Source of the DNA: a virus | Strand: one strand, 5' to 3' | Length of the DNA stretch: 61,227 nt | Virus record (IMG/VR): IMGVR_UViG_3300020274_000004 | Span: 1-61,227 of that record | Part shown: in pieces, positions 20,201 to 40,500 of the stretch | How the letters are laid out: each line of letters starts with the position of its first letter | Position numbering within the stretch: position 1 is the first letter of the stretch | Position numbers and translations under genes: made by a program | Notes under the pieces: model-generated | The model's input: only the letters and a program-made list of their open reading frames with translations | The model's database searches: none | Told to the model about the DNA's origin: nothing

Positions 20201-21446
20201 CATTGGCAAGAGATGAACCTGTAGCATTAGGGAAACCGTGAATATTATTGACAATAACATTATTACCCATCTCAAATGGAATAATAGTGTTCTGTGCTGA
20301 GTTAGTCTCTCTTGGTTTTTCTAAGTCAACGTATGTTGGAGATAGAGTCTTAACTCTGTATCCTCTAACATATGCAGTTCCTGGACCAAACTCAATAGAA
20401 TATAATCTTTCTGCTGCAACATTACCTTGAGCAGTTGTAGATCCAGATTCATATACACCATTGTTAAAACCATCATCAAGATTTTCTCTAGCAGTAATCT
20501 TGAAATCTTTAACAACATAGTCACCAGATTCCTCAAAGGTTCTGGTTGCCATAGATCTTTCTAATTCATCATATGCACTTCTATCAACAAGTTTCTCAAC
20601 TTTACTATTATTGATTCTTAATAGTTCTAAGAAATCTTTATCAGCGTCATCAGTTAGAAGTTTCTTAACTAATCTTGTGGTGATTCTAAATCTATGAGAA
20701 CCAGGAGCAGCATAGTTACTTGTTCCAGCAGCGTTATCATTGAGACTAAGGTCATCCTCTGGAGTAATAATGGATTCTTGAATATCAAGTCCGATACGAT
20801 AGGAGGGGTTGCTTCCATACTGATCTAATAGTAAGTATTGGTATTGTACGTCAACAAAGAATCCTCTGATGAAGTATACACCTTCTTGAATATATGCTAC
20901 TGAACCTTGTTGTAATGCAGCAGTAGGAAGTAATTGAGCGAAGGGAGAACCAACCTCAATCAAAGTTGTACCGAACGTAATCTCAGTATCAGTGATTAAC
21001 TGTTCATTATTTGAAAATGTCTGTTGAGTATTTTGTGTTCCACCAGATTCAATATATTTAATGTAGAGTGTAATATAACCTTTCGATGAATCTGCAGAAG
21101 AGATACTGAATAATACTTTTGCCTTTACACCAGAAGTAAGACCCTCAATGATCTTTCCATTCAGTTGAGTTCTATACAACTCAACATCAGCACCCAAGAA
21201 TGATTCTTGTAACTGGATAGCGTCTACGTTTAGATCATAACCGACTTGACCAGGGATAACCATGGATCCATCTTTGAAAAGATGCGAACCTACGTTCTCT
21301 ACCTGATTCTGCATAATAGACTGCAGAGTCGTTAGTTCTCGTGCTTGGATTGGGAACCCAGGACGAAATAGCACTCGATAAAAGTTTTTCGTTTTATCGA
21401 AATCGTCGTAGTATGGGGTGACGTTTAGATTGGTGTTTTGTGCCAT
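14217..21446 (-). CDS. DUF4815-type virion structural protein, 2409 aa
   Basis: The N-terminus (TNLNVTPYYDDFDKTKNFYR, then VLFRPGFPIQARELTTLQSI) is the signature of the DUF4815 family, found in large baseplate or fibre proteins of cyanophages. The first 1400 residues are of this type. Residues about 1250-1500 carry an Arg-rich stretch (SRTIGSRVTRNSFWLEMDRG). After residue about 1870 come beta modules (DFTVGETITGNSA..AEVVSW, ETITGGSSSVTATV, and LDGTTAVSHVDE) also present in gp14, gp15 and the giant protein. The position between gp8 and the fibre matches T4 genes 9-11, so a role in the baseplate rim or fibre attachment is likely. It shares TAATG overlaps with its neighbours. Confidence 0.88.
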   Translation of the reverse strand: MAQNTNLNVTPYYDDFDKTKNFYRVLFRPGFPIQARELTTLQSIMQNQVENVGSHLFKDGSMVIPGQVGYDLNVDAIQLQESFLGADVELYRTQLNGKIIEGLTSGVKAKVLFSISSADSSKGYITLYIKYIESGGTQNTQQTFSNNEQLITDTEITFGTTLIEVGSPFAQLLPTAALQQGSVAYIQEGVYFIRGFFVDVQYQYLLLDQYGSNPSYRIGLDIQESIITPEDDLSLNDNAAGTSNYAAPGSHRFRITTRLVKKLLTDDADKDFLELLRINNSKVEKLVDRSAYDELERSMATRTFEESGDYVVKDFKITARENLDDGFNNGVYESGSTTAQGNVAAERLYSIEFGPGTAYVRGYRVKTLSPTYVDLEKPRETNSAQNTIIPFEMGNNVIVNNIHGFPNATGSSLANAYQTIELRDTYTATPGQQSGNIIGFARLAAIEHTSDGDNTTFGDADDTYNVNLFDIQMFTVLELASSVNISAGSLLVGATSGARAYLVDAISGSDHIKCYQVEGSFTVGEMVTVDNLNVDTIEVVHGYSFSDTRQIVSRDESTNATEFTSDIILSDIQVIQGSTFTYDASGGSEKITGSQSNFALDLKPGDRIFFNGTQYVEVDKINPTSLTGSQVSTIFNYAAQTVNVTPGPGGAAPSAGTYTALLRQRSKLNNIENANLLSEMPKKYIKSISDESMIVRRTFDAQTVASNSISITLPENEQFQAISDTNYTFTVLAGSNSTHPVGDQITINTTNSGAVGYTTFTSSDRTTIQIDNLTNITSIKVTATISKNVTQRKTKSGQQMFVLKVNKTVENLDKQNYNLTYSNLYGTRIQDRDLSLGLVDCYRLHAVYESNDDNDPVLPSVTLVEPTFFATGTIVTGRTSKARAKVVAFSSGTLKLSLVYISGTLQSGETIDGFDSNGTAISAIINDSVGSVIAGSKVITDNYFLEVNQTGFIYDISKITRKKGVATPIRKVLMVIDYYTHSATGDYFGGQSYLDTAYTDIPFFKTTYLADFLDFRPGCKNLYSGTGTVASPAFVNCSTFDFKSRVFNVSGTPNATIFDVPKIQSDFRCDFDWFLPRIDKAFLTPAGEFQLIKGKSSELPKEPDDLKDGMLLATMSHKPYGFDPETDIVITRSDNRRYTMRDIGGIERRLDQVEYYTSLNMLESDTFNTKIIDADGKDRLKNGFIVDDFSDHSKSETSHEDFASSLDFASGELHSSHYTTNVPLEVNTTLSSNYQKTGPIITLPYAELTIINQPYASRVENINPFNVFTYIGRIDLTPASDDWLETQRLPQRVTQIEGDFEAVSSELRVDQNGFAPIQWNAWRDQWTTSRTIGSRVTRNSFWLEMDRGRSPSPGVWGGRGMRRVNRTETLLTTTRQTRSGIRSRVIPRIDRQSLGDSVVSSTAIPWIRSRNVKVNVERLKPRTRFYSFFDGKKVSDYFTPKLIELIKNPSTDARTNSTPFIPGETVRGQNSGCVLRVANPDDLYVNNPYDDTVMATSYASTTAYLNIDTDALASNAVGQFYGNIQVGEVLVADSGARAVVKDRRLVSDRFGKMQASFFIPPASVDTNPRWATGTRTVRLSTSDTDSRLAGAVASSAEAEYEASGTLNRVRENVLAVRNAEIVRDTVNQTRNFNTIRTETRQIGWYDPLAQSFISDEEGGVFLTSVEVYFFKKDTNIPVSMQVRTMENGYPTTSILPFSDVTLEPSQIQLSETAAVATKFTFKAPVYIPQSIEHCFVLLSDSNEYQIWISRMGEIDITGDRTISEQPYAGVLFKSQNASTWTADQYEDLKFKVNRAEFDTSGLSTVTLNNAPLDIGNGGKLNLQADPVQTFIPEIDLVLNSTTLPYTVGARIYQKTTLAQGTIAKRTVTTGGVILTVKDITGTFAAGSNTGGVISNRIVSSKTTATMVVSGASGDFTVGETITGNSATAPTAEVVSWTAGSNTLTLSFVSTDFVTSPAETITGGSSSVTATVSSVTYSGDAIEASAVSDGYPTATPTYSTSQRKVRIAHSNHCMHSSANNVIISGIKSEVSPTYLTAAISASDTSLNVNDASAFHTIINGATISATVKGYARIISDAGTEIVSYTAISGDFQTITLSERGLDGTTAVSHVDESIVECYNLDGIPLIEINKTHNGILNPTLDTYEIATSSIGRLGIRSGGFGAVATQNVQYDILVPQIERMLLPETGITARINGISGTSINDGNTRLQESFSNDGVFSDIILSEDNLLSAPQLICSSINESSELAGAKSFRLDLTLTSNKGNVSPLIDTDRMSMTTVMNRINSPANPNTAKLSVGDLHDAVYITRSADLVNPSGAIKVLFTGYRPANTFIKVLYRVRPTGSTDPIETFGFEFFPDAGANVPPTTEKTIFKDYEYEVSGLNFDQYQIKIVFTSPNQSLTPILQDLRAIALAV

Positions 21447-22978
21447 TAGAACTCGATTACGATTTTGATGTCTTCTACTTGGTCGTTAGCACGACTAATT
21501 GATCTCCTATTATCTATGTACACAACCTGACCAGTGTTTGAAGCAACTTCGGGTTTTGCATAACCGTTGTTGAACTTCATACCCAGATCATATTCTGTGT
21601 TGTTGATAGTTCTAGAAGATGAGTTGGGAACAGCAGGGAAGTTGACGTCGGGTTGTCCTGCAGCACCAGAGGTTGCACCACTGATTACGTTAGAACCGTC
21701 AAACTCATTCTGTGTACCAGTAACTTCTGGGAAGATACCGTCAACTGCGTTCTGATAATACTTCAGAAGTTTAGTTGTAGCATTCCAAGAAATCACTCTT
21801 CCACGAGCAGTAACGTTGGTTCCACCAACAACTCGTGTTTGTGTGATGATCTCATCAGGAACGTAGTTACCTTGGAATGTAGGAGCGAAGATAACTGCTT
21901 TAGCAGCAGAGATCGTCAAGTCAGAGATAAGTTCCGATGTACCAAATTTAAGTGGGTTTGTGATAAGACCGATACGACGATAGTCATTATCAACAGGGAA
22001 GTCACCCGCACCCTCATCGTATGAGAGTTTAGCGTTAATCATAACCCTAAAGGCACCGATTTCTGTAACAGCATCTGCACCATGCCCACCAGGAGGAGGC
22101 AAGATAACGTCAACTTGTCCACCAGTACCAGTACCGATACCAGTGATATTATCAATGGTGATTTTACCGAATGTATATCCAGTACCACCAGATGTCACCG
22201 TGGCAGAGATAACTTTACCACCGTCAACAACAATAGAAACACGACCACCAGTTCCGTCACCGTTGATCGCTACGTTATCGTATGTTCCGTTGTTGTAACC
22301 AGAACCTGCAGCATTAATAACAACAGTATCGACTTCACCTGCAACTGCGTTGGTTTGGACTGCAGCGTTTGTGAAGACAGGCATGTAGTCGTTAGAGAAG
22401 AATTTAAGAACACTAGCAACGGGGATAGTGTACATATACTTCCAACGATAACCATCACCTGTTGTAATGATACTAGTGCTAGTGCCAGTAGGCTCAACTG
22501 TACTAGGTTTACCATTTGGATCTGAAGGAGATGTACCATTGTAGATACATTTGTATACTTGATACTGAGAGTTTACAACGTAAAAATCAGAATCATAGAG
22601 TTTAGTAGCACCAGATGCAGCAGTCTTTGATGGGGAATAGTCATGACGATACATGTCATAAGTAAAACCCAATCCACCAGTAGTTTGTTCTGGAGAAACC
22701 CAGTCAATTCTACGACAAACTTGAACGGTATCTGAAGCGAGGACACGTTTCATCGACACCATGTCGTCATAAGAACCAGAAAACTCTGAGAAAGAGTCCA
22801 CTGCCTGAGGCGGTGAGTTCTCATTATCCCAAGGTTGCGGTCTTCCAATAAACAAATACAAACGATCTCTCGTTGCACCTGCTACATCGTCACTCTGGGT
22901 CGAATCAGGACCTTCGAGTGCCTTGATGAACTTTTTCGCAGAAAATATTCTAAACTGATCAGTAAGTAGGGCTGCCAT
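21446..22978 (-). CDS. gp8: Baseplate wedge protein, gp8-like
   Basis: The N-terminus TDQFRIFSAKKFIKALEG, RDRLYLFIGRPQPWDNE and later YRHDYSPSKTAASGATKLYD and GDGYRWKYMYTIPVASVLKF are features of cyanophage gp8. gp8 dimers bind gp7/gp10 in each wedge. The protein is 510 residues versus 334 in T4. Part of the excess is a Gly-rich repeat at residues about 216-300 (INAAGSGYNNGTYDNVAI, VTSGGTGYTFGKITIDNI), the same GxGYT unit that tiles the giant protein. A late promoter lies about 27 bp upstream. Confidence 0.9.
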   Translation of the reverse strand: MAALLTDQFRIFSAKKFIKALEGPDSTQSDDVAGATRDRLYLFIGRPQPWDNENSPPQAVDSFSEFSGSYDDMVSMKRVLASDTVQVCRRIDWVSPEQTTGGLGFTYDMYRHDYSPSKTAASGATKLYDSDFYVVNSQYQVYKCIYNGTSPSDPNGKPSTVEPTGTSTSIITTGDGYRWKYMYTIPVASVLKFFSNDYMPVFTNAAVQTNAVAGEVDTVVINAAGSGYNNGTYDNVAINGDGTGGRVSIVVDGGKVISATVTSGGTGYTFGKITIDNITGIGTGTGGQVDVILPPPGGHGADAVTEIGAFRVMINAKLSYDEGAGDFPVDNDYRRIGLITNPLKFGTSELISDLTISAAKAVIFAPTFQGNYVPDEIITQTRVVGGTNVTARGRVISWNATTKLLKYYQNAVDGIFPEVTGTQNEFDGSNVISGATSGAAGQPDVNFPAVPNSSSRTINNTEYDLGMKFNNGYAKPEVASNTGQVVYIDNRRSISRANDQVEDIKIVIEF

Positions 22979-23016: not shown

Positions 23017-26000
23017 TTACGAACGAACAACTGTAGAATACTCAATACCCTTAATTCTATAAGAGGCACCGCCATTTCCAGTAAGGTTCTCGCCACCCAA
23101 CACTGCTTGTGCTGCAGCGTTTGCACCTGTAGTATCACCACTCGCATTTGTAAATGTTACAGTTGGGTGAAGATTGTAGGTGCCATCTACCGTTTGAGGG
23201 ATTCCATACCCTCCATTATTAATGGTGATTGATGCAACTTGGTCTCCTGCAGTTGTCATTACAACAGTACCAGTTGCTTGAATATCACCAGTATTCTCGA
23301 TTGCTATTGTTGGGACTCCAGTATAGTTTGTTCCTGGATTTGCAATAATAAAGTCAATAATAGTGTTCTTAGAAGAAAACTCATATAACAATCCACCGAT
23401 ACCAACGTTAACATTACCTGTATTATAAGGTATGATGTCCTTAACAACTAAGAGACCAGTTGCAGGTGTCCAAGATACAACCGTACCTCTGACTCCAGAT
23501 ATTGATCCAGTCACAACCTCATTAACACTAAAGTTTTGACTGTTACCTGATGGAACATCTAATGTGATATTTAGGATAGCAGGATGTGATACACCATCAG
23601 AGAGTCCACCTGCCTCAATAACAGTTGCATACTTGAATGGAATATCAGCGTCTTTAATGCTGTCACCAACTTGGAATAGAGTTGTGTTAGTACCACCTTG
23701 TGTCTCTTCAATACCATAAAGTGAACTAAAGATTCCACCATCAAGACTAATTTGATTTTCAAAATCAGTAGAAGTGTTCACCAGATCAGGAATACCATCT
23801 CCTGCACCTGCATTTTCAGCAATATCTTGGAAATCTTTATCTTGTATTGATCCAATAGGAATTGTAAATGTTGTGATGGTAGATCCTGTAGCATCAATAA
23901 CAACGTGTGGCAATACACCAGAACCAGAAGATGCTGCAACACCTGCATCAAATTGAACAATAGCATCTTCTGTAGATGGTCTACCACCATCAATAAATGC
24001 TAGTTCATCAACTTCAAACGTTACAAGTAATTCTCTTGTGGAAGGATCATAATCATATACTTTTGCAACTTTATTACTTGCATTTTCAACACGACGTATA
24101 ACTCTGTCACCAACGTTAAATTTATAATTTGATAATCCTGTAGCAGTATTGTTCTGTGCTGTATCTAGTACAACTCTCTGATCATAATTAAAGTTTACAC
24201 CACGAGTTAGACCAGTAAATCTTCCTGCACTCTTACTAGTATATGCAATGGTTTCTTTGTTGACAATGATTTGACCAGATCCAGGATATGCATCTGTAGA
24301 GTCAACATAGATATTTGCATCATTTGCACCAACATCTTTTACAAGACCAGTTAAGTAGATTGCACTAGAGTTAAATGCCTGTCTTGCTCTAGTCTTACGC
24401 TTAAGATTTACAAGTTTGGTGAAGATAATGTTTGGTACAGAAGTATATCCTTCACCTGGATCTGTAATTGTAATACCTGTAACAGCACCTTGAGAAATTT
24501 GTGCTGTTGCTTTAGCACCAATACCTCCACCACCAGTGATAAGAACAAATGGTTCTTCTTGATAGAACTCACCTGGGTCTACAATATTGACAGATGTAAC
24601 CTTACCAAGAGTGTCAATCTCAGCAGCACCTTGTGCACCTTGTCCACCACCACCTTCAAAGATGAGTGTTGGAGGAGATGCATAACTTCTACCTTGATTA
24701 AGTAGAGATAGACCAGTAACTGTTTGAACAACAGGACTACCTACTGCACCAGTTCCTTGTCCTCCTAAAATTTTTGCTTTTGCAGGTCCAAAATAATTAT
24801 CACCCTTTCTAGTCATCTTGATATAAGAGACTGATCCGTTATCTGCTAGTACAACATCTCCAGTTGCTAACGTTGGGAAAGTATTAGGTTGTGCAGGAAC
24901 GGGATCACCTTCAAACAGTGGTGCACCATAATACCTTGGACCGATGATGTATGGGAATGCAGGATTCCCACTACCATCTTCAGACATAAAGTAAGCGTAA
25001 GTTCCATTGGGATACTCTGGAGTTACGCCAAACTTTCCATTATATTCATCTAAAGTTCCGACAGATGCATCGTAAATGTAATCTGATGTAAGATCACCCA
25101 AGATGTAACCGTCATTAACTAATCTGAGTCCATACCCAGAGTTGATATAAGAAAAGAGATACAATACTCCAGGTGAATCAACTGGGACTGTAAATCTTAC
25201 TTCACGAGTTGTTGCTAATTCAAACCCAGAAAGATATTGCTGATAAGTAACACTCGATCCATCAATCCAGTACGAGATACCATTTCCAGAGTAAAGAACT
25301 GAAGCGTCACCAGTAATAACAGGATTATTAGAGTGCCAACCGTCCGTCTGCGTAGAAATGAGTATATGGTTTGAACCGTCATTGGTTGAGTCATTTTGAT
25401 TAAAAATGTAAGTTTTTCCTCTATACAGATTCAGAAACTCAGGTGATGAACCATTGAATGCAAACTTACCATTAGCAACAGTAACATTATAAGTTACCGT
25501 GCTTGCGGTGTTCACGATGGGTCTTGCACCTTGAAGTTCTGCAGTATTCCTTAAACGGTAACTAGAGGTTTCCCTAGCAACAGCACCCGAACTGTTGTAA
25601 CCATATGGTCCGTAGATCGGGTATCCGTCAAAGGACATACCAACAATTTTACTGTGACCATCTACATGTCTTGAATAATCAATATTTCCACCTGCCTCTG
25701 TGCCGAAGTGATCTTCGACATAGTAGGTATTCATGTTTTCTTCTTCCTCTTCCTCCTCAGCAGTGGTATCGAGGATCATATAACCTTCGTCACCTGCATA
25801 ACCAGACATGTATTGATGATAAGGACAATGATAATAAATCCTTTGTGTCTCATCACCATTCATGATGAAGATTGGTTGGAAATTCTGTTCGTAATCTGCA
25901 GCATACGCCCCAGATGCACCTGTACTATTGTAATATAACGTTCCATTAGGATCTCTGAGATTACCATCAGGAGTGGTGCTGAATCTCATTGGGTGTCCTT

Positions 26001-27273
26001 GTGTATGGACACTTGTTGGTTGGTTAGTTGCCCAATAAGGATTGATTAATACATTTGCAGGGTTTCTAAATTCACTTTGAACCCAAATGATTAGATAATT
26101 CTTTTGTACTTTGATACCCTCTGGAGCAAAGTAGAAAACACCTGGGGTAAAGTTACCAAACTCGTGTGCATCAGGACCAAATTCAATATAGAAAATACCA
26201 CCAGGGAATTTAATAGGATCAGCAGATACTCTAAATTTGAATCCATTAGAACCCAAACAAAGATCACCATTTGAAAAATCATCACCAGTAACTTGTCTGA
26301 GGTAAATTCTTGTAATTATTCCTGCATTATTTCTTACAATTTTTGCAATCTCACCACGTCCAGTTCCAGATATTTCATCTACAATTCTTCCAACTTCTAT
26401 AGTTCCCAAAGTTTCATCAACATTATCAACAGTGAGCATGATATTGTCAAACTCGGATTTAATACTCCAGTAGAATACTTCCTGCAATCCAAACTGGAAT
26501 ACACCATTTGTTAATGCAAACTCATCAATCGTTTTACTAGTGTGATAGTAGTAAATTTGATTATCAATAAACGCATCATATGCATTATTACCCTTAACAT
26601 AATCATACTTGACTACATCAATAGGGAAGTTTACTGGAGCATTACCAGTAAGACCCCAATCAGGAGTGTGTATGAGACCACCATTTGCTAATATACCAAG
26701 TGTCCTATTAGATGATAATCCTCTAGTTCCTGGATTTGGAACATCTTTACCACCTCTATAAACAAATGTTTGATCAAAATTTCTATCGATAATAACATCC
26801 GACCCACCAGGTTTTCTCTCATCCAAATAAAGTTGAGATGGTTTTGGTGTATTATCAGATACTATTCTAAGTCTGTCAGTTTTTGTAGTTCCATTTAATA
26901 CAAATGATCCTTTAGTTACAGCATTTTGTATTACATCTAATTGACTTGGATATGATTGCCAAATTCTATTGATATCAAATGAATCTACTACGTTTGGTGT
27001 TTCTTGCTCAGGAATGATCTGCAAACGTAACGGATCGTATCCTCTTCCTCTGTTTAAAACTCTGACGTGTGTGATTCTACCAGAATCAGTATCAATAATT
27101 GGATATAATAATGCTGCCACATCTGGTGTGCCACAACCAGTGATTGTTAAACGTGGAGGATCTGCAGGATCATACCCTGATCCTCCGTTTAAAACTTTTA
27201 CTGCACGAACACCGAATACCTCATCAAAGATGGGTTCGATACTTGCACCTGTTCCTGGGACAGTCCTTGCCAT
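23017..27273 (-). CDS. Virion protein with cupredoxin-like site and YHYH domain, 1418 aa
   Basis: Residues 1-120 carry GGSGYDP-type beta repeats. Residues about 420-495 look like the metal half of a cupredoxin: His427 in GHPMRFS, then Cys483, His486 and Met489 in YYHCPYHQYMSG, the order of type 1 copper ligands. A seven-Glu linker follows. Residues about 530-790 form a YHYH domain (IVGMSFDGYPIYGPYGYN, YNGKFGVTPEYPNGTYAYFM, GNPAFPYIIGP). A second cupredoxin-like sandwich near residues 630-740 lacks the ligands. C-terminal GxGYTS repeats follow. The gene starts four bases after the 414-residue gene and lies between gp6 and gp8, so the product is probably a baseplate or fibre part. Copper binding is inference. 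Confidence 0.8.
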   Translation of the reverse strand: MARTVPGTGASIEPIFDEVFGVRAVKVLNGGSGYDPADPPRLTITGCGTPDVAALLYPIIDTDSGRITHVRVLNRGRGYDPLRLQIIPEQETPNVVDSFDINRIWQSYPSQLDVIQNAVTKGSFVLNGTTKTDRLRIVSDNTPKPSQLYLDERKPGGSDVIIDRNFDQTFVYRGGKDVPNPGTRGLSSNRTLGILANGGLIHTPDWGLTGNAPVNFPIDVVKYDYVKGNNAYDAFIDNQIYYYHTSKTIDEFALTNGVFQFGLQEVFYWSIKSEFDNIMLTVDNVDETLGTIEVGRIVDEISGTGRGEIAKIVRNNAGIITRIYLRQVTGDDFSNGDLCLGSNGFKFRVSADPIKFPGGIFYIEFGPDAHEFGNFTPGVFYFAPEGIKVQKNYLIIWVQSEFRNPANVLINPYWATNQPTSVHTQGHPMRFSTTPDGNLRDPNGTLYYNSTGASGAYAADYEQNFQPIFIMNGDETQRIYYHCPYHQYMSGYAGDEGYMILDTTAEEEEEEENMNTYYVEDHFGTEAGGNIDYSRHVDGHSKIVGMSFDGYPIYGPYGYNSSGAVARETSSYRLRNTAELQGARPIVNTASTVTYNVTVANGKFAFNGSSPEFLNLYRGKTYIFNQNDSTNDGSNHILISTQTDGWHSNNPVITGDASVLYSGNGISYWIDGSSVTYQQYLSGFELATTREVRFTVPVDSPGVLYLFSYINSGYGLRLVNDGYILGDLTSDYIYDASVGTLDEYNGKFGVTPEYPNGTYAYFMSEDGSGNPAFPYIIGPRYYGAPLFEGDPVPAQPNTFPTLATGDVVLADNGSVSYIKMTRKGDNYFGPAKAKILGGQGTGAVGSPVVQTVTGLSLLNQGRSYASPPTLIFEGGGGQGAQGAAEIDTLGKVTSVNIVDPGEFYQEEPFVLITGGGGIGAKATAQISQGAVTGITITDPGEGYTSVPNIIFTKLVNLKRKTRARQAFNSSAIYLTGLVKDVGANDANIYVDSTDAYPGSGQIIVNKETIAYTSKSAGRFTGLTRGVNFNYDQRVVLDTAQNNTATGLSNYKFNVGDRVIRRVENASNKVAKVYDYDPSTRELLVTFEVDELAFIDGGRPSTEDAIVQFDAGVAASSGSGVLPHVVIDATGSTITTFTIPIGSIQDKDFQDIAENAGAGDGIPDLVNTSTDFENQISLDGGIFSSLYGIEETQGGTNTTLFQVGDSIKDADIPFKYATVIEAGGLSDGVSHPAILNITLDVPSGNSQNFSVNEVVTGSISGVRGTVVSWTPATGLLVVKDIIPYNTGNVNVGIGGLLYEFSSKNTIIDFIIANPGTNYTGVPTIAIENTGDIQATGTVVMTTAGDQVASITINNGGYGIPQTVDGTYNLHPTVTFTNASGDTTGANAAAQAVLGGENLTGNGGASYRIKGIEYSTVVRS

Positions 27274-27276
27274 TTA

Positions 27277-28521
27277 TTATGATACGACGTTGATAGTTCC
27301 TTGCATTGCTGCATGGAGTGTACACTGATAATAAAGAGTTGATGGAGCATCAAATGGAACTGTCCAGTAAAGAACAGTAGTTCCACTACCACTTTGACCA
27401 GTAGTATAAGGTGTTCCAGATAAACCTTGAGTGGATTGAATTCTAAATGGGTGTCCACCACCTTCAACAGTATTGTCAAAGGCATAGGTGAAACCTCTAT
27501 GCACATAAAGCGTAGGGTCACGGTTCTCACCTGCAGGAAGTCCTGGACCGTTGATGAGATAGTCACTACTTGAGTTTTCTACGGGTGCACCTAACTCATA
27601 CCAAAGGATAGGACCAGTAGTAGGAGTAGGAACCCAGTCAGTTCCGTTATAGAACAGACCATCACCCTGAGTCAATCCTGACATGTTAGTATCAGTCAAA
27701 GCACTCAAAGTAGTAGTCAAAGTTCCAGAGAAGTTTACCGTTACAGTGTCTCCAGAAACTGCAGTAGTAATGTTAGTACCACCTGCAATAGTTAGCGTAT
27801 CTGTTTGACTATTAGCAGTTGTAGATCCTGTGTCACCTGCAACAGAAGCAAACGTGTTAATACTACCAATACCTGCAGAGTCATTAGCAGGTAACCATTT
27901 GCTGCTAGAAGCATTCCACTTTAAAACTTGATCATTACTAGGAGGAGTTGTACTTGTATCAACGTCTGCAAGTAAATTAATACTTGAATACTCTGTTACT
28001 AATTTTGCTCTTGTATCTCCAACACCACCTGCGGTGATATTAATGTTTACATATGGATTATCGTCACCATTAACCGTAAAGTAATAACCAGTATACCCTG
28101 CAGCAGCAGGAGCAACACCTAATGAATTATATTCGTTCTTATAAGAAAGAGTAGTTGGAATATCTACACCACCAGTCGCACCATCGAAAGTTGAAGTAAC
28201 ACCACCTGCAGCAAGAGTAATATCTCCAGTTCCGTTCGTAGCGAGTGGAATATTACCATTTGATGAAGAAATAATGCTATTTCCATTTACATCTAACGCT
28301 GCAGTGAGGTTAGTGTAATCTGATGGTAGAAATGTACTACCGTTGTATCTTAAAACTTGTCCTACAGCAGGGTTAGTGGTACTGACAGTGAGTGTCGTAC
28401 CATTACCTAGTGCAGTATATAGTTCATTGAAGTTATCATTGACCTTATCGCCTCCGACTCTCAGGGTATCCCCTGTGTTGTCATTTGCCGATGTGCCAAG
28501 ACCGATGGTTTGCTTAGCCAT
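27277..28521 (-). CDS. Virion protein with C-terminal cupredoxin-like copper site, 414 aa
   Basis: The N-terminal part (GLGTSANDNTGDTLRVGGDK, then VNDNFNELYTALG) is a motif common at the start of phage fibre and baseplate proteins. The middle is Thr/Ser-rich beta repeat. The last 110 residues read like a blue-copper fold: VHRGFTYAFDN, His357 in GGHPFRIQ, then LYWTVPFDAPSTLYYQC with Cys400, His403 and Met406 near the C-terminus. Plastocyanin-like proteins use exactly His, Cys, His and Met in that order. Copper binding is not demonstrated; the fold could be purely structural. A late promoter precedes the gene. Confidence 0.8.
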   Translation of the reverse strand: MAKQTIGLGTSANDNTGDTLRVGGDKVNDNFNELYTALGNGTTLTVSTTNPAVGQVLRYNGSTFLPSDYTNLTAALDVNGNSIISSSNGNIPLATNGTGDITLAAGGVTSTFDGATGGVDIPTTLSYKNEYNSLGVAPAAAGYTGYYFTVNGDDNPYVNINITAGGVGDTRAKLVTEYSSINLLADVDTSTTPPSNDQVLKWNASSSKWLPANDSAGIGSINTFASVAGDTGSTTANSQTDTLTIAGGTNITTAVSGDTVTVNFSGTLTTTLSALTDTNMSGLTQGDGLFYNGTDWVPTPTTGPILWYELGAPVENSSSDYLINGPGLPAGENRDPTLYVHRGFTYAFDNTVEGGGHPFRIQSTQGLSGTPYTTGQSGSGTTVLYWTVPFDAPSTLYYQCTLHAAMQGTINVVS

Positions 28522-28542: not shown

Positions 28543-28550
28543 ATTTATGG
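28543..28550 (-). promoter_or_regulatory. Late promoter CATAAATA overlapping the stop of the giant gene
   Basis: The minus strand reads CATAAATA with the TAA of the giant gene embedded in it. It lies about 22 bp upstream of the ATG at 28521, so it should start a transcript for the cupredoxin-like, YHYH and gp8 genes. Confidence 0.75.
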
Positions 28551-31500
28551 GGTTTCTGGGTCTACCAACTCTTCACCGTATTGTGAAAGGTCGGGAGCAA
28601 CATAATCATCAGGAACAACAGTGTCAATACTGATTCCTGGATTTTGATATCCAGTACCAGTTGCACTAAGTTCAACACCTGCAACACCAACCAAGGCACG
28701 GATGTTACCATCGAAACCAGAGATGGAGTCGATTCTCACGGTAGGTCTAGAAGTGTATCCAGAACCTCCACCAGTGACTTGAACTTTGTCAATGAATCCA
28801 GATGTCAAGAGCGCAGTTGCAGATGCGTTCTGACCGAAGACAGATCCAAGATAATCAAATGTGATCAGAGAGTTAGAAGATTCAATAACAGCAACTTCTC
28901 TATCTGATGTCTCACCTTGGATGTCAATGAAGTCACCAGGTTCGATAGGTGGTACAACTTCAGCAGCATCAACGTCTGCCTCAGAACCAACATAAGAGAA
29001 TGCGACGAAAGTAGATCCGAATCTAGGAATCTCAGAGAAGATGATTCTAGAACCAACAATCTCAAAACCAACTCCAGGTTCTTGAATCACACCGTTAAGA
29101 GAACAGATGATATTGTTCTCAGGTCTAATCACACTAGACTGAACACCTTCAGTTAGTGTCAAGGAGTAGAACACATCATTACGCTTAAGGTTGAAGGACT
29201 GTCTCAATGAGTCAAACTCGAATGAGATATCATCCAACTGTCTAAGTTTACCAATGTAGAATCCAGTGAAGGATGCTCCAAGATCAGGTGCTTCAGTAAA
29301 CTGAATCTGGTTCGAGAACGCTGTGTATGCGTTTGTAGCACCTGGAGGTTGTAAGATACCATTAACGAAGATTAAGAGGTGTCCTGCGGGATCTGGGAGG
29401 TATGCAGTACCATTATTCTGTGAGAGATCGAAGGTAGTTTGTGTACCATCGAATCCCTTGAAGGATCTCTTGACTCTTGCCTTAAGATCAACCTGAGTAA
29501 GGATAACAGCACCGTATGAATCAGGTCCCTTGATAGCATCTCTAATTCCAAATGTTCCAGTAACATCACTGAGATACAGACGCTTGTTGATACCATCTGG
29601 GCGAACATCCTGCACGAGAGCAGCACCTGCACCTGCAGTGGTCACGATAGTTGAGATAGAAGCATATCCAACGGGGAATGTTGCTGCTAACCCATAATCA
29701 CCAATCTGATCACCCTGAGAGAATGTACCTTGGAACTCAACCATGTAGACATAGTTGTTAGCAATATCTACGTCAGTGATAATACCGAATGTGGCAGAAT
29801 CTTGAACACCTGATATAACCTTATAAAGTCTGTTACCAACAGTAAAGTTGTTGAGACCACTAATAATATTAATACCAAATCTCTTGTATCCAACAGATGC
29901 AATTCTGTCACCAACACCAATATCAAGTCCTGCATACTTAGAAACTGTAATGAACTGTCTAGAAGCAGAAGGATAAACAACTGCGGTTTTTTCAAATGTT
30001 CCAAGTAAGGATTCAGTATCAACGGTTAATTTACCACCAGTGTTGTCGGTAACTGCTGCCTCTGCCTTCAAGAATGAAGTAGGTTGTGCAGTTGCACCAG
30101 AGGTGTAACCTTTGAATGGAATGTCAGCAACGAAGTCACCCTTAAGATCAATAATATGAACGCGAGTTTCAATAGCACTGATCTGAGCAGTAGTAGAGTT
30201 AGTTGCACCAACAATGTTGTCTGTAATTGCCCATGGACCTGCAGTAATCTTGACGTCAAGATACTTGTAGTTAGCATCTTCATGGAATCCATAAACAACA
30301 CCAGTGATAGAAGGAGCACCTTGTTTTGCAACAACTTCATTCATTGTGTAAGGACCGTCAGTGATATCACCGTCGATTCTAAATCTGGAGTAAACCTGTA
30401 CTACTAAACCTTCATTCAGAGTAATTGATTCAACCTCAGCAGAAGCATCACTGAGTAATCCGTATACAAAATCAGCAGGATTAAGTCCACCATTGTAACC
30501 AACAGGAATATTTCTAGTTCCAAACTTCTTAGTAGGAAGACTGATTCCATTGTAAGTTGTAAGACCGATGTAAGAAGTATCGTTACTTAACTGATTAGTA
30601 ATGATCTGCAACAGATATCTAATTGCTGCAGAAATAGAATCCTTAGTATAGTTTGCAGCATCAGCAGAACTGTAGAAGGAATAGAATCCTGCAGCAGTAG
30701 AAGGAGATGTCAAACTATTATCCAGAGCAGCAATCATGTATTGCTCTAACAATTCGAGAATGTAGTTCTTAGTATTGAATTCGGTATCAGAGAAGAATGT
30801 CTTACCACTCTGAGATTGATAAGGATCGAGTCCACCTTTAGTGAGTTTTGCACCCCAAACAAGGACTCCAGTAGAACCATCACCAGTCCAAACAGTAGCA
30901 CCACTACCACTCTTGATGATAAATTTAGATCTTAGAGTTGTGAATCCGAAGGAGAACGTACCAGTAATGAAGCATCTATACCAACCATCTCCAAGAGGAA
31001 TTGCACCAAATTGATCTACAGTAATACCACCCTGAGGAGTAAATGCTGTTCCAGTTGCACCAGTTGTAAGATTGAGGTCGAAGAATGCATTTTGCTCTCC
31101 TGCACCACCTGGATCAAGTTGCATTTGGAATCTGATTGATTGTGAACCAGATGTCTTGACAAATCCAGAGAAAGTAAATTGCTGAGTTTCAGTTTGACCA
31201 ACAGCACCAGTATCAAACGATTCATTAGTAGTATCGAAAGTAACTGTTCCAGAGTCAAAGGTTTCAAAAGCAGTTAAGTTGAAATCTCTGTTAATTTCAT
31301 GCTGACCATTTTGACCATTGTTAGGAGTAACATCTTCTGCAGTCTGAGTATCATCAGGAGCAAGACCTTGGTTAGCAGTAATAGTTACATTAGTTGTAGG
31401 TGTCCAGTTGATTTGATATGCCTCAGGATTAGTCCAGAGGTTTGTACCTGCAATTTGACCAGAGATGTTAGAAGTAATAAGTCTTGCACTTGAAAGAGTT

Positions 31501-34500
31501 CTAACATTAGCAACTTCGGTATACCAATCATAAGGACTACCAACAGCACCAACGGTAGCAGTTGCACCAGAGGTTTTACCTGTCAACGTATTAGATGCAA
31601 CCCATGCAGTTCCTGTAAATGGACCAATAACAAAGAAGTTAGTTTCCGAATCATATTCAAGAACAGTTGCATAACCGCCAACATTAGATCTTACAACTTC
31701 ACCAACTTGGAATGCACCAGTTACACTAGAAATAGTAATACCATATGCAGTTGTCTTCTTCTTAGTATCTGTTATGACAAGATCATGAATAACATCATTT
31801 ACAGTTTGATTTACAAAGTCATCATAGACCCAAGATCCCGCACCAAACTGAGCAACAGTCTGAGTTTGAATCTCTTGTAAGTAGTAGTTACGGTTGTAAA
31901 GAATATGCTTGGCAGCACTTCTACCAATCGTCTTAGCAGGAGCAAGAATATTAACAGCAATCTCAATAAGTTCAGACCATCTGTTCTTAACACTTGCTGC
32001 GTCAGTGATAGTTAAGGCATCACGAACTGCAGCATCATCGGTATGTAATGCTGAATATGCACCTGCTGTGCCACCTGTGTTCTCACCATTTGCATAGAGT
32101 AAATTATCGATTGCTTTCTTACCAAGTGCTTCAAGTTGCTCGATACCATATACGGTAGCAAGTAGTTCTTGTTCAACACCTTGAGAAATATTGAGAGTTA
32201 AAGCAGCAGTTAGATACTTGGAGATAGCATCGATAGTAGAGTTATTTCCACCAGTCTGTAAATCAGAGATTGCACTCTCAATAATGAGTTTCAAGTCTCT
32301 CTGACATTTTGCTTCACCAAGGGCACCGTTAGGATACTGGAATGCTTGATATTGAATACTGTTTAGCAGATATGTAAACTCAGTAGTGATGAGTCCAGTA
32401 ATTTCTTCTGCGATAAAGTTTCTATTGAAGTAAAGTCTATCAGCAGCAATCTCAAAATCAGAACCAGTCGGAGCGATGATATCATTAATTGTAGTTACGA
32501 GGTTATCAATCGCAGTCTTGACGTTTGCACATCCACCTGCATCATTAGTAATACCCCAGTCACCAACGATAATACCGTCAGTGTTATCGTAAGTTAAATC
32601 ACCAGTAACTGCTTGCTTGGCATAGAATCCAAGTCTTTCGTGTGCATAAACAGATTGCCAAACTTGTAATCTGATATGTTGTAGTTCACCGCTTGCACCG
32701 ATGTAGAATTTAGCAGCAGTAATAGTTTCTAAATTACCACCATCATAAAGATCATCTGCTAATCCGTCTAAGATCAATCCAAGGTCAGTCTTACAACGTA
32801 ACGTACCATCAGTAGATGTACCGTTAGCATTTCTAGGCATGTTAAGTGCAAGATCTGGATATCTTGTGAGCATATCAAATGCTGCTTTATCAACGATAAC
32901 CTTTCTGTTTGCACGAATCAAGTTAGCAGCATCACGGAATCTACCACGAGCATCTTCATCAATTTGATTGGTATAGATTTGATCAGTAGTTCCATTGTGA
33001 TAATCAACAATGAATGGAACTTCACTGTAAGCATTAACTGTTCCACCAACAAACTCATATGCAGGAGAAACTTTAGTAACAGTTGCCAAATGATCAGTTG
33101 GTGATGCAGCAGCAGCGTTTTCTAAGGTGTCTGTGATGATATCAAGTAAGTTATTGTTAGTAGTGACAACATCAGCACAATCAGTAAGACTGTACTCAGA
33201 TTTTGTAATACCATTGCTTACTGCACTTGAGAAGGTGTGAGAGTATTGATCATCAGCACTTGATGCGCCAACGTTGATAGTAAACGTATCCGTGGTGTGG
33301 GCAGAGATCTTGAGGACTTGCTTAGAAGCAGGATCAGTAGATCTTGGGTATGCGGTAATCTTTTGGTTTCCATCTTTAGAACAAGTGAATGATATTGCAC
33401 CATCAGCAAGGAATACAGAGTCACCTGCAACTGTAATACCATTAGTAGTAGCAGATACGAAGGTGTGAGTGTAGTTACCGCCAGAAACGACTGCACTGGA
33501 GGTTGCACTTGCAAATGTATGTGTGCTTGTATTGGAATCAGTTCCAATGTCAACCGTGATAGTATTGTTCTTCTTAATGATTCCATTTGCAGATGCAGAT
33601 ACGAAAGTATGAGCAAACTGATCAGCAGCACTAGAAGGACCAACATTAACAGTAAATGTATTGTCTGTCTTAGCAGAGATTCTTAACCATCTTCCAGAGA
33701 AAGGATCAGTGGAACGAGGATAAGTCTTAGTCTCATGATTACCATCTTTAGTGCAGGTGAAGGAGAGTGAATTATCAGCAATTCTGATCTTATCTCCTAC
33801 AACAAATCCATGAGCATTCTGAGTGATTTGTAAAACACCAGTTGCAGGATCATAAATTGCTCCTGTAGCAGTTGATGTTACACCATTTTGTGTGATAGAA
33901 ACAATCTTATCAGAAGCAGGAAGAGTTCCATTTCCACCAGTTCCTCTAGAGAAGGTCAATGAATCTTGTGCAATCTTAATTGACTGACCAACTTCCAAGT
34001 TATTATTAGGAAGTGTTAGAACAGCGATACCAGTTGAAGGATCGTAAGTTGCACCTGTTGGTTGATAGTTAACAGCAGTTGACTTACCTACATTTAGTTC
34101 AAAAGTATTTGTAGTCTTATTCTGAACTTCTAACCAACCTAAAGCAGCAGGATCGTTAGGTCTTGGATAGGTATGGTTTGTAGAATTGCCATCCATTGAA
34201 CATGTAAATGTAATGGAGTTGTCTGCAAGTTGAATCCTATCACCATTTTGTAAATTATGACCATTAGAAGTAATAGTCAAAATACCAGTGGTAGCAACGT
34301 ATGTCGCGTTTGTTGCAGTGATAGTAGAGTCACTTACCAATCCATGACCAGAAGAAGTGACAACCATCTCACCAGTGGCAGGGTTGTATGTTGCACCAGA
34401 AGGAGTAACTTGAGTTACAGATTGTGAGAGGTAGTCAGACTCAGTAATTGTAGTATCAAACTTCTGAGTGAATCCATGATCACCTTGAACAGACCATGGA

Positions 34501-37500
34501 GTGTTATTAACAACATACTTAAGTAACTTACCAACAGTTTCATAAGTGAATAAAGATTCAACAAGATCATCAGAAACATGCAACAGAGTGACTGGGTTTG
34601 TAGTTCTGTCAACATAAAGTGCAGCAGCATCCCAGACATGGTTGTTAGATCCATTTCTAAGATCCTCTACCATTGCATCTAAGATATCTTTAACATCATC
34701 TTCACAGTTAATCTCTCCACCAACAACAGTGAAGTAAGGATAACGTTCCTTCATGATATACACTGCTTCTTGAGCAATGAACTCTCTGTTAAGAATGACT
34801 AGATCAGCAGCATTGATGTATCTGTGTGTCTTCTGGTTAAATCCTCCAGTAGCACCAGTTTGGCGTTGTGTTTCACGAATAGCATCATTGTTAAAGTATT
34901 CGTCAATAGTAAAGTCTTGTGTGCCAGACCAATCATCAGTATAAGTTTGTGCATCAGCACCATCTAAGTGATAGAGTAACTTAGCGTTATTATCACCTTG
35001 GAAGATACCGTTTTGAGGAGTGAATGGTACTGAAGAGTAACGAGTTGTAGATGATAATCTAATTTCATCAATATGACCGATGAAACCATTAGCACCTGCG
35101 TAATCCATACCAACTCTAAATGGTTTGGCAACATAAGAAGTGCTATCAGTTCCTGTTCCTCTTTCTACACCATCAAGGAAAATCTTAGTTGTAGTGCTAG
35201 ATCTTTGAACAACAACATGTGTCCAAGTATCAGCAGTAACAGTAGTTGCTCCAGATGTTACTAGATCAGAACCATTTACATTGTATCTTACTTGTCCTGC
35301 TTCAAGGTATAGTCTACCTGCAACTTCAGATGCAGATGATGCTCTAAAGTCGAAGATAGTTCTTGTACCAGTAATATCGCTAGGACGGATATAACATTCA
35401 ATAGTGAATCCTGCAGAACCCCATGCAAAGTCAGAGGATGAATCTGTAGAGATATAATCACCTGCACCATCTAACAGTAGTGATGAAAGACCAAATTTCT
35501 TCTGTGCAGTATCTAACTGAGCATTACCAGAGAATGTTGCGATGTTATAATCTAAACCACCACGTTGTGATCTAGCAATCTTACCAAGGAAGATAGTGGA
35601 ACGTGCAGAGTTTGCACCAACAACTTCTGCCTTTGTATCTCTAGATCTAATGACTTGTCCTGCTTGGAAGAAACCAGAACCAATTCTATCGGTAAAGGTA
35701 AGTTTTCTAATTCTGGCACCTTCACTTGCTTGGAAATCACCAACATTATTACCGTATTCTACTTTGTAGTTACGAATGTATTCGTTTTCTTGTAAAGTGC
35801 CAACTGCATTATCATAAGGAATGACATAATTATTGACCTGCTCATTTGCAGGGAAACTACTATCAAAGGCAGTAGTATTGTCAGTGAAATCAACGACACC
35901 AATCTGAGATTTGGAAATGTCATCAAGGACAACGTTTGGATAAGTCTGTGATGTAATTCTGTTGAATAGTAATCCAAAGAAGGAAGAACCTTCTGAAATA
36001 TTAACCTGTCCAATAAACTCATTAGTTGTAGGATCTTGATAAGTTGCAGTAGCAGTTACACTAGCAACAACACCAGACTGTGCACCGATAATAACATCAT
36101 TCAACTGAATATCGAATAATCCAGGTGTAGATTGATAAGTACCCGCAACCTTACTCAAAGTAAGTGCATTAGTAACAGAAATATCAGTTCCATATACAGG
36201 TGAATCTTCCTGATGAGCAACTGCTAGAGTTCCGTTCTGTCCTCTAGTTACAGTAAGAGTTGTAGATTCTGAACCAGTAGTAACACTGTCAACTCTAAAG
36301 ATTTCAGATCCTAACTGATAATTAGTTCCTGCAGCAAATACTCCTGCAGTGACTGCATAGTCAGCAGCAGTATTATCTGTTTTAAATGCAACCATCTCAA
36401 TAGATGTAGTTGCAGCACCGACTGTGTAACGTAACTGAGCAAGAGGAGTTTCAGCACCACTAGCAAGGTTGATCTGTTCAACTTTTGCAGTATCACCAGT
36501 AAGGTTAGTAACATTCTCACCGAATATGAACAATCCGATGTTAGAAATGCTAGTAACAGCAGCAACGTTAGCAGCAAAACCAGTTGCACCAACAGTTGCT
36601 AGTTCACCGATAGTGTAAGTTCCTTGGGTGATGAAACCATTGATGGTGTCACCAACGACAGTTGTAACAGTCAATCTTGCAGTACTAGAAGTACCAACCA
36701 GAGTCATTCCTGGAGTTGGGAAGATACCACTAATATTGGTAAAGGTTACCGCAACAGTAGAAATTGGACTGATAGTAACATTGACATACTTGATACTTGC
36801 AGGAGGTTGTGGTGGTTCTGCAAAGACGATTGAATCACCTTGAATCTCAAATGCAGTTCCAGGAGTTTGTACAACACCATTAAGAACAATCATCAACTGG
36901 TTAGCGTTGGCAACAACGTTACCACCATCAACAGTTAGTGGGAAGGAGATCTTCTGACCATCGAACTGATTAGAAATATCATCAAGTCTTTGTACAACAG
37001 AAGTTAGAATGTTCTCAGAAGAAGTTAATCGCTTCTGTCTGAATAGTACTTCTGTATTATTAAATTCTGAGTAAACAGGTTCAACCAGAGCAAAGTTCTG
37101 AATATTAGGAACGATTGCATCTCTTGCAAGTTCAACAGATTTTGTTAACTGGAATGAAGTCTCTTTATTAGGAATAAATCCATAATCGTTAAGATCTAAT
37201 TCACCAAATACTTTGAACGATGCAGGGTGAACGTTCTTGATAAGAATCTCTTTCCACTCACCGATAGAAACAGCAGACTTAACAGCATAAGAGAAGTCCT
37301 GATAGTAGTACGAGTCTTGGATCTTCTGAATAATCTCAGATGGTTTACCAACATCATCGATAAACTGACCAGTAGTCTTAGTAATAGAACCAATTTCAAG
37401 AACACCTTTAGCAACCTTGATATCGGTCATGATACCAGAAGATTTAGAAATCACACCAGTGATTCTTTGACCAGTAGAGAATTCTCCAGTATAGTCAACA

Positions 37501-40500
37501 ATCTTAAGAACTCTAGGTCCAACTTGCCAACCTGCGTTAGTAGAAACAAATCCAGTAGCAGTTGCAGCAGTAAGTGAATCACCTTGATATACAAGTTCAC
37601 CTTCAAGGAAAGTAGAAGTAACAACGTTTGCAGTTGCACTACCACCGAAGGATTCAGTTAATACTTGCTGACGACCTGTACCTGCGTTGACATATGATAA
37701 TGCATCACCCAATGCAGCGTTAGCAGGAGTAATGGCAAGTTTTAATTGATCTGGTTCAAGAGAGTTAGCAGAACCTGCAATAGCATAGTAAGTAGTAGTT
37801 CCATTCAATCTACCAACAGCACCTGCAGATAGAGGGAATTCAACTCCATCACCAGTATCAACAGCATTCAGTGTAACAGCAGCACCGTTTTGAATACCAT
37901 GTGGGAAAGCAAACTGTAGGAGTCCTAAGTCAAGGTTAACAACATAGTTGAAAGAAGATCTCAGTGATACAATAGGTGTTGAAGAATAACCTGCACCTGG
38001 ATCTTTTACGATAATAGTATCAAGACGACCGTTCTTAATGGTTGCTTCTGCAATAGCACCAGAACCGCCACCACCAGTGATGACAACAGCAGGTGCTTGA
38101 GAATAACCAGTACCAGGATCAGTAACTGTAATACTATCAAGAATACTTGTAGATGTTAACTGAGCATTGATTGGGAATGTAATCTCAGGACGTAAAGTAT
38201 AGTCATGAGGATAATCATAACCAAAGTTGTTGTTCTTAAGTTTCTTAATCTTACCAACACTAGAACCTTGAGTGAAGATAGATGCACCAGAACCGAATGG
38301 AGGAATAACAACGACAACCTCAGCACCAGATCCAGTCAAACCAGATCCTAAGATGCCAGAAACTGACTCAATATCAATCGATGCAGTAGTATATCCTTTA
38401 CCAGGAGATGTAACATCAATCTTTTGAATTTGACCAGGAATGGTTACACCGTTAGCATCAGTTCCATCAGCAACAGTGATAGAAACAAATCCACCTTCAC
38501 CATCACCTGCAATAGGAACACCTGCGTATTCTCCTACAGCATATTCAGTTCCAGGATCATTAATTTGAACTCTTTCAATTTGTCTGGTTGATTGAATAGC
38601 AGAGACAATAGGCAATCTGGTATAGAAACCACCTGGGTTTACAATACGAACAGAGTCGATAGATCCAACTGCTCTTGTAGATGAAGTTCCATAACTTGTT
38701 TGGTTGATATCAGCAGCACCTTCTGGTTCGTTAAGAAGAGGGAACTTGATAATATCAGCACCACGAGTAATGGTTTGACCTGCAATAGAAGAGATCTCAA
38801 AATTACCCTTATATGGAGAATCTACAACATCAAGGTAACTACCAGGTACAACAGGAGAATCATCACCAGTTCTAGAAGGATCAAAGTAATATGAGATGTT
38901 AGTAACAATACTTTCGTCAACTTTTAGTTTTACAGAAGGTGTAGGAGCACCTGCACCACTGATACCAGGGGTTCCAACTCTTTCAATAGAGTTGAATGAA
39001 TATTCAAGTTTGTATAGACTATCCTTAGCAAATGATAAGTTACCACCAACCAATGAGGAATGACTTAAGTCAAAGATGTATTGGTGACCATAGTACATCT
39101 TCAGAGTTGGAGACTTCATGAAGATATTAACATTTCCTGCAGTTGTAGCAGGTGAACTCACTGCTGCTTGATCTAACTTGTAAGTAAACTCAAGAGGACT
39201 AATTACTTGATCGACTGGGAATGCACCATCGTATTCATCATAGGTTACACCACTAACTTCTTGAGATGGGTTGCCATCAACGTAAATGACATCTCCTTTA
39301 GAAAGATAATGACTAGTGTCAGTAATTACATAAACTTCATCACTATTAGCAACAGAAGAAACTTGTAAGATCTTATCAAGGTTTGCGACTAAAGTGATCT
39401 TAAGAACACCAGTCAGATTAGTAACCTGTATAGTGCTTCTTGCTGAGTTGAATGAAACATCGCCAGAAGAAAGTTGTACAACAGAACCAACAATGAATGG
39501 GGAAGAACCAGATACTTCATCAATTCTTACAGAATAATCTTCGGTCGCAAATGGTTTGAACTTAGCAAACGAATCAAGATTTTGACTACCTGCAGCATTG
39601 TAAGTACCATCTAAGTTGTACTTATCAAGATCAATATCAAAAGTTCCTGGAGTTGTATTAACAACCAGTGGGAATGAGAAGTTTTCAATAATATTGATAT
39701 CATTAGGAATAGGTCCAACAATACCATAAGTTGATTGTTCGTTGAACTGTTCAGTTATTAAATTACCAGTAGCAGTGTCATTAGTCCATGTGTTGTTGTT
39801 TACAGCAAGGTAAACTTTATTATTCTCATTATCAATTCTTACAATGTAACCGCTATTGACAAACTGTCCAGAATCATTGTTTAAACGTAGTTTAGTACCA
39901 ACACTAAATCTAAATGCCTGATTAATCGTTAACTCTTGTATATTATCAATCTTGATTGTAGGAGTAACCTTGAAGAAATATCTGTCCTTAACAACAGCAG
40001 ATACGTTAAGTTTCTGAGATCCAGGTGAAGGAACAGTAGCAGTTCTAGAACTCCAAACATCTTGAGTATAAGTAAGAGTTTCAGTTCCAGGAGTCATATT
40101 GATTGTAGCATCATCAAAGTCAAGAGATTGGAATCCTGCTTCTGATAAAGAATAACCAGTATTCTGCATAGTGAGTGTACTACCAATGACGGGAGTAACT
40201 GCAGTTCTAGTAAATCCTAATTGAGTATTAGTTTGTGTAGAAATTGTACCAAGTCTTGCAGAATCAGCGTTCTTATCAACTTTAAGTGCAAAACCATCAT
40301 AATCAATCAAATCATATCTGTTAAGGTTAGTAGTGAACCATGCAGTATCAGACCAAGTATATGAGAATCCAAATGCACCTGTAGTTGGGAATACAGAAAC
40401 ATCAGAAGGAACAGTAGGAGTGATTGCTCTATTTCTTAATCTAAAGTTATCAACCTGGAACTGACCTTGCTCATTAACTCTAAAGTTACCTGCAGAACCA

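Follow-up and report, generated by a model that had tools for sequence, protein, structure and literature searches.

The window, a viral record of 61 kb (61,227 nucleotides) analysed at its full length, carries on its minus strand a T4-like baseplate gene cluster of marine cyanophage type, recognised from Pfam and PHROGs matches (Table 1). Within this cluster, two neighbouring genes encode a 414-aa gp9-like connector and a 1418-aa baseplate wedge subunit, for which Cyanophage P-RSM1 is the nearest named relative (94% and 84%, respectively), with Synechococcus phage metaG-MbCM1 also among the nearest. The N-terminal domain PF07880 scores 39.4 bits in the 414-aa protein against a cut-off of 25, placing the protein with T4 gp9/gp10. 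The adjacent 6374-aa structural protein (28545-47669) contains many repeats of the type GxGYTxxPxVxxxGGGGxGA, a continuous YHYH domain and laminin-G/concanavalin-like domains. Elsewhere in the window, a 169-aa protein at 711-1220 matches alternative oxidase (PF01786) and is probably the cyanophage auxiliary gene for PTOX, the plastoquinol terminal oxidase.

Table 1. Genes, domains and predicted ligand residues of the baseplate cluster, in window coordinates.
Feature	Position	Strand	Basis or remark
gp6	47676-49709	minus	Pfam/PHROGs
6374-aa structural protein	28545-47669	minus	Pfam/PHROGs
gp9-like baseplate wedge/tail-fibre connector, 414 aa, phrog_677	27277..28521	minus	N-terminal residues 3-73 match T4 gp9/gp10 N-terminal domain
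C-terminal cupredoxin domain of gp9-like protein, residues 318-414, complete H-C-H-M	27280..27570	minus	AF2, Foldseek, hhalign
Predicted ligand His357 (414-aa protein)	27451..27453	minus	translation, conservation
Predicted ligand Cys400 (414-aa protein)	27322..27324	minus	translation, conservation
Predicted ligand His403 (414-aa protein)	27313..27315	minus	translation, conservation
Predicted ligand Met406 (414-aa protein)	27304..27306	minus	translation, conservation
1418-aa baseplate wedge subunit, phrog_708	23017..27273	minus	cupredoxin, YHYH, degenerate cupredoxin segments
Cupredoxin-like domain 1 of 1418-aa protein, residues 366-502, complete H-C-H-M	25768..26178	minus	ligand conservation, profile links
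Predicted ligand His427 (1418-aa protein)	25993..25995	minus	translation, conservation
Predicted ligand Cys483 (1418-aa protein)	25825..25827	minus	translation, conservation
Predicted ligand His486 (1418-aa protein)	25816..25818	minus	translation, conservation; just outside the range first given
Predicted ligand Met489 (1418-aa protein)	25807..25809	minus	translation, conservation; just outside the range first given
YHYH domain of 1418-aa protein, N-terminal part, approx. residues 505-585	25519..25761	minus	PF14240 in two stretches, alignment columns; boundaries approximate
Third cupredoxin-like copy of 1418-aa protein, residues 586-718, between YHYH parts	25120..25518	minus	hhalign to nested copy, 99.5%
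YHYH domain of 1418-aa protein, C-terminal part, approx. residues 720-785	24919..25116	minus	PF14240
gp8	21446-22978	minus	Pfam/PHROGs

The first-pass annotation had placed complete blue-copper-type ligand sets in these two adjacent virion proteins, and translation, conservation and the fold of the gp9-like domain confirm this. All eight residues and the string quoted for them are reproduced by translation, while the start of the range, given as 25820, was slightly high and clipped His486 and Met489 of the 1418-aa protein. Cys400 is the sole Cys of the 414-aa protein. Among the 18 long minus-strand proteins (17,153 aa), the motif C-x2-H-x2-M occurs twice, both times with a His 25-80 residues upstream; when the sequences were shuffled with their composition preserved, at least one such protein appeared in 36 of 5,000 trials and two such proteins in none. 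The type-1 copper pattern, His...Cys-x(2-4)-His-x(2-4)-Met, is present and conserved in both proteins.

The C-terminal domain of the gp9-like protein is a cupredoxin, as follows from a confident model with amicyanin as its best match, from profile alignment and from the invariant alignment columns. Structure prediction had been named beforehand as a check, and AF2 modelled residues 310-414 with a pLDDT of 90.8 as a cupredoxin-like domain, in which Cys91 (model numbering) sits at a strand end, His94 and Met97 in the next loop and His48 before a strand, so that the predicted ligand placement is consistent with the cupredoxin arrangement. A Foldseek search of the model against the PDB returned amicyanin first (probability 1.00, E 2.5e-3, TM-score 0.46), followed by pseudoazurin, AcoP, nitrite reductase and a purple cupredoxin, mixed with some Ig-type sandwiches and others; no match reached an E-value of 0.001 and TM-scores were modest. 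In a single pairwise hhalign comparison with 16 bacterial small cupredoxins, the domain aligned at a probability of 90.7% (E 1.2e-6, 26% identity over 69 columns) with all four ligands in register, and a YHYH negative control gave 0.14%. Searches of PDB sequences pointed the same way at weak significance, with copper nitrite reductase (E 0.095) and plastocyanin (E 0.21) as the two best matches of the domain profile, and with copper nitrite reductase (E 0.049) next to one unrelated match (E 1) as the only results of the single sequence. The only recurrent Pfam match of the phage domain is the At5g54830-like domain (PF25489), found in 20 of 23 members with a best E of 0.0006; these matches are weak throughout, and on the domain of the window the score of 16.3 bits stays below the cut-off of 27. 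The fold search with the same model also matched viral peptidase S8/S53 proteins and four beta-sandwich proteins of Pithovirus/Marseillevirus in BFVD (A0A481Z6J5, A0A481Z7Q7, A0A481YWX9 and A0A481YVH3).

Ligand conservation in homologues, likewise named in advance as a check, was assessed on 80 loci from a scan of viral contigs, and no ligand loss was seen in either family. Each of the 57 distinct gp9 homologues extending into the domain has all four ligands, even a group whose identity there is just 40-45%. In the 1418-aa family His427 is invariant in 62 of 62 sequences and Cys, His and Met in 59 of 59 (sequences covering those columns), and the residues directly before His427 are variable and often deleted. 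Since the search patterns contained no ligand residue, this conservation is not an effect of ascertainment. The complete set is also kept in distant copies, namely those of the podovirus P-GSP1, of P-SSM2, MED4-213 and P-HM1 (two copies each), of the actinobacterial phage DSL-LC01, and of S-SZBM1 and S-N03. Across 19 domains less than 60% identical to each other, from phages, bacteria and an archaeon, six of 77 well-aligned columns are invariant (H, P, Y, C, H and M), and the random probability that the four predicted ligands fall among these six is about 1e-5 if columns are treated as independent. The cellular copies were partly fetched with patterns containing ligand residues, so that their conservation is partly ascertained and weighs less. 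In the phage collection, the gp9 domain is present in 331 records. The domain search lists no gp9-like proteins of Aeromonas, Methylophilales or Pelagibacter phages, although the full-length search does, and we therefore take the cupredoxin domain to occur mainly with picocyanobacterial hosts. In one contig binned as a Rhodopirellula MAG (L081), cyanophage genes of the gp9-like and 1418-aa-like types stand side by side; it is probably viral DNA in the bin. The presence of cupredoxin-type domains, each with a full set of type-1 copper ligands, in two adjacent baseplate proteins is thus supported, and marine cyanophage baseplates include the cupredoxin module with intact ligands as a standard component.

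The 1418-aa protein displays a more complex architecture, in which cupredoxin-like copies are interleaved with a YHYH domain. Its domain 1, compared directly with cellular cupredoxins by hhalign, reached 2%, which is not significant, while a pooled family profile gave an E-value of 3.8e-5. The connection runs through a nested fourth copy of about 140 aa, which carries Cys-x2-His-x2-Gln and lies inside a loop of domain 1 in 14 relatives (L014-L018, L021, L023, L024, L026-L028, L032, L035 and L061). This nested copy links by hhalign to the gp9 domain (97.8%), to domain 1 (97.5%) and to the third copy (99.5%); searched as a single sequence against the PDB, it returned unrelated matches only. From these links and its ligand pattern, domain 1 is most plausibly a diverged cupredoxin. 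The structure model of residues 340-800 had a mean pLDDT of 51, too poor to be used, and a PDB search with the alignment of the 1418-aa protein found only solute-binding proteins (E 0.24 and worse), which we took as noise. The nested copy comes and goes, as shown by L014, where it is present in a domain 1 whose allele resembles that of the window. In the third copy, the sequence signature of the domain is kept, but neither the Cys nor the second His nor the axial ligand survives in any aligned homologue; because the domain thus persists without ligands, the ligands of the other two copies look selected.

This degenerate copy splits the YHYH domain of the 1418-aa protein, whereas the YHYH domain of the 6374-aa neighbour is continuous. 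YHYH (PF14240) is known from phage tails, and the version in the 1418-aa protein differs from the known ones in being broken by a degenerate cupredoxin and preceded by an intact one. Earlier authors predicted the YHYH domain to be a Zn-dependent hydrolase (PMC7824862). The analysis also covered the YHYH family in 299 genomes. In the open-access literature we found no paper on an association of YHYH with cupredoxins. The modularity of the arrangement is apparent from S-SZBM1_205, the orthologue of the 1418-aa protein (615 aa; L163 3241-5088), whose N-terminal part runs straight into the equivalent of residue 803. The block missing from it, cupredoxin-YHYH-cupredoxin, spans some 700 residues (about residues 95-800), and the gp9 cupredoxin of S-SZBM1 is retained.

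S-SZBM1 also places one orthologue of the gp9-like protein in the virion. CsCl-purified particles of this phage contain S-SZBM1_206, which is orthologous to the 414-aa protein and has its domain and ligands; 9 peptides were identified, covering 24.9% of the sequence (PMC9146016, Table 1). The same phage is reported to have no long tail fibres (PMC9146016), and since it nevertheless keeps the gp9 cupredoxin, this domain cannot serve long-fibre attachment solely. T4 gp9 shares with the cyanophage connector the N-terminal region (PF07880, with matches to the T4 gp9 and gp10 chains) and the role assigned by PHROGs, but the C-terminal cupredoxin of the cyanophage protein lies outside the match to T4 gp9. 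By analogy to T4, we infer that this cupredoxin is oriented outward. In searches of the open-access literature, we came across no report of cupredoxins in phage tails. The cupredoxin family itself is already known; relative to that literature, its location in the virion and the nested, partly degenerate copies are new.

Outside phages, the phage domain is closest to domains that bacteria carry on secreted or surface proteins, with about 43-51% identity. Such copies are found in genomes of bacteria and archaea from the sea and from soil, where they form part of secreted proteins, of proteins containing collagen-like repeats and of a subtilisin-like peptidase, an occurrence that fits the reading as a surface module; in a sample of one phylum, the domain was found in only two of 299 genomes. 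A subtilisin-like protein of a Euryarchaeota MAG (L086 922-3453) has the same H-C-H-M domain near its C-terminus, and the pairing with S8/S53 peptidases is recurrent. With amicyanin, pseudoazurin and plastocyanin the phage domain shares the beta-sandwich, the upstream His and the Cys-x2-His-x2-Met in the C-terminal loop, with ligands aligned, and amicyanin has the same C-x2-H-x2-M spacing. The small cupredoxins differ in being only about 24-26% identical to the phage domain and in being free periplasmic electron carriers, whereas the domains described here belong to virion or surface proteins and their metal site is predicted. Moreover, the first His of the phage domain is followed by Pro (HPF), where amicyanin (L132) has Asn.

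Metal binding is strongly suggested by the invariant ligand set, and copper is the best guess for the metal because of the combination of Cys and Met; the data suggest that cyanophage tails may carry a copper-type metal site. We propose a model in which small cupredoxin domains are modular parts of marine cyanophage baseplate and tail-fibre proteins. The N-terminus of the gp9-like connector would anchor in the baseplate and leave the cupredoxin as a free C-terminal tip, while in the 1418-aa protein a diverged cupredoxin would stand beside YHYH inside the removable block of about 700 residues. The His together with Cys-x2-His-x2-Met would most likely coordinate a single metal ion in what is probably a type-1-like copper site; by tying the ligand loop to the edge that carries the first His, the ion would stiffen an outward-facing beta-sandwich. 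The rigid sandwich could then contact the fibre or the host surface, in a structural or adhesive role. To this reading, a metal-clamped, outward-facing module contacting fibre or host with a probably type-1-like copper, we lean with little more than even confidence.

That the cupredoxin scaffold carries a structural site for zinc or another metal than copper, and so would not be a blue-copper protein in life, is unlikely but keeps some weight. The metal ions known from phage tails are structural, with zinc in T4 gp12, iron in the tip of T4 gp37 and metal in PAAR/spike tips, and the role of the Cys as a copper ligand is itself a prediction. Against this stands the axial Met, invariant in every copy of the gp9 and 1418-aa domain 1 families, which is unusual for zinc and typical of type-1 copper. 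We regard as rather improbable a redox-active site, in which a blue-copper centre of the virion would sense copper or the redox conditions at the cell surface, or would pass electrons, and in this way trigger or tune adsorption or the baseplate change. The complete His2-Cys-Met set is of the electron-transfer type, and the axial Gln of the nested copy in 14 relatives, a place where stellacyanin also has Gln, is a change that would tune the redox potential. However, no redox partner is evident, in cells the domain is found on collagen-like proteins, peptidases and secreted proteins, and copper supply during cytoplasmic assembly of the virion appears doubtful. It is quite improbable, too, that functional type-1 copper centres in the baseplate are loaded with copper outside the cell, from seawater or at the host surface, and so gate adsorption as a metal or redox trigger of infection. 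A similarly small chance is left for a beta-sandwich adhesin with no metal in the virion, whose residues are kept for packing or other chemistry such as a reactive Cys. The ligand-free third copy of the 1418-aa protein indicates that the scaffold works metal-free, but the only invariant columns are the four ligands and two neighbours, and packing would not select H, C, H and M.

Regarding its origin, it had been suggested that the domain might be a remnant of a captured host plastocyanin-like fold, and petE is carried by many cyanophages (PMC3037559), so that the sequence was available. This origin we consider very improbable and reject: the sites are undecayed, the phage domain shows no special affinity to plastocyanin and is closer to non-plastocyanin surface domains of bacteria (about 43-51%) than to classical cupredoxins (about 26%), and the Pfam Copper-bind family (PF00127) has no match anywhere in the window. 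Mere coincidence of the ligand residues, conceivable since short motifs can arise randomly, has a next to negligible probability and is refuted by the shuffled sequences, by the invariance of the ligands in all homologues covering them and by the match of the gp9 domain to the cupredoxin fold.

For the metal-clamped module that we prefer, the biological meaning depends on the metal. Should copper occupy these sites, a virus group that is among the commonest of the ocean would have the metal on its tails, and phage infectivity would be tied to the trace-metal chemistry of the waters inhabited by picocyanobacteria, which are copper-sensitive. Copper binding would likewise provide a functional label for a module that is mostly annotated as unknown or merely by structural gene, in hundreds of phage records as well as in secreted proteins of marine microbes, and the site would be testable by single-residue change in culturable phages.
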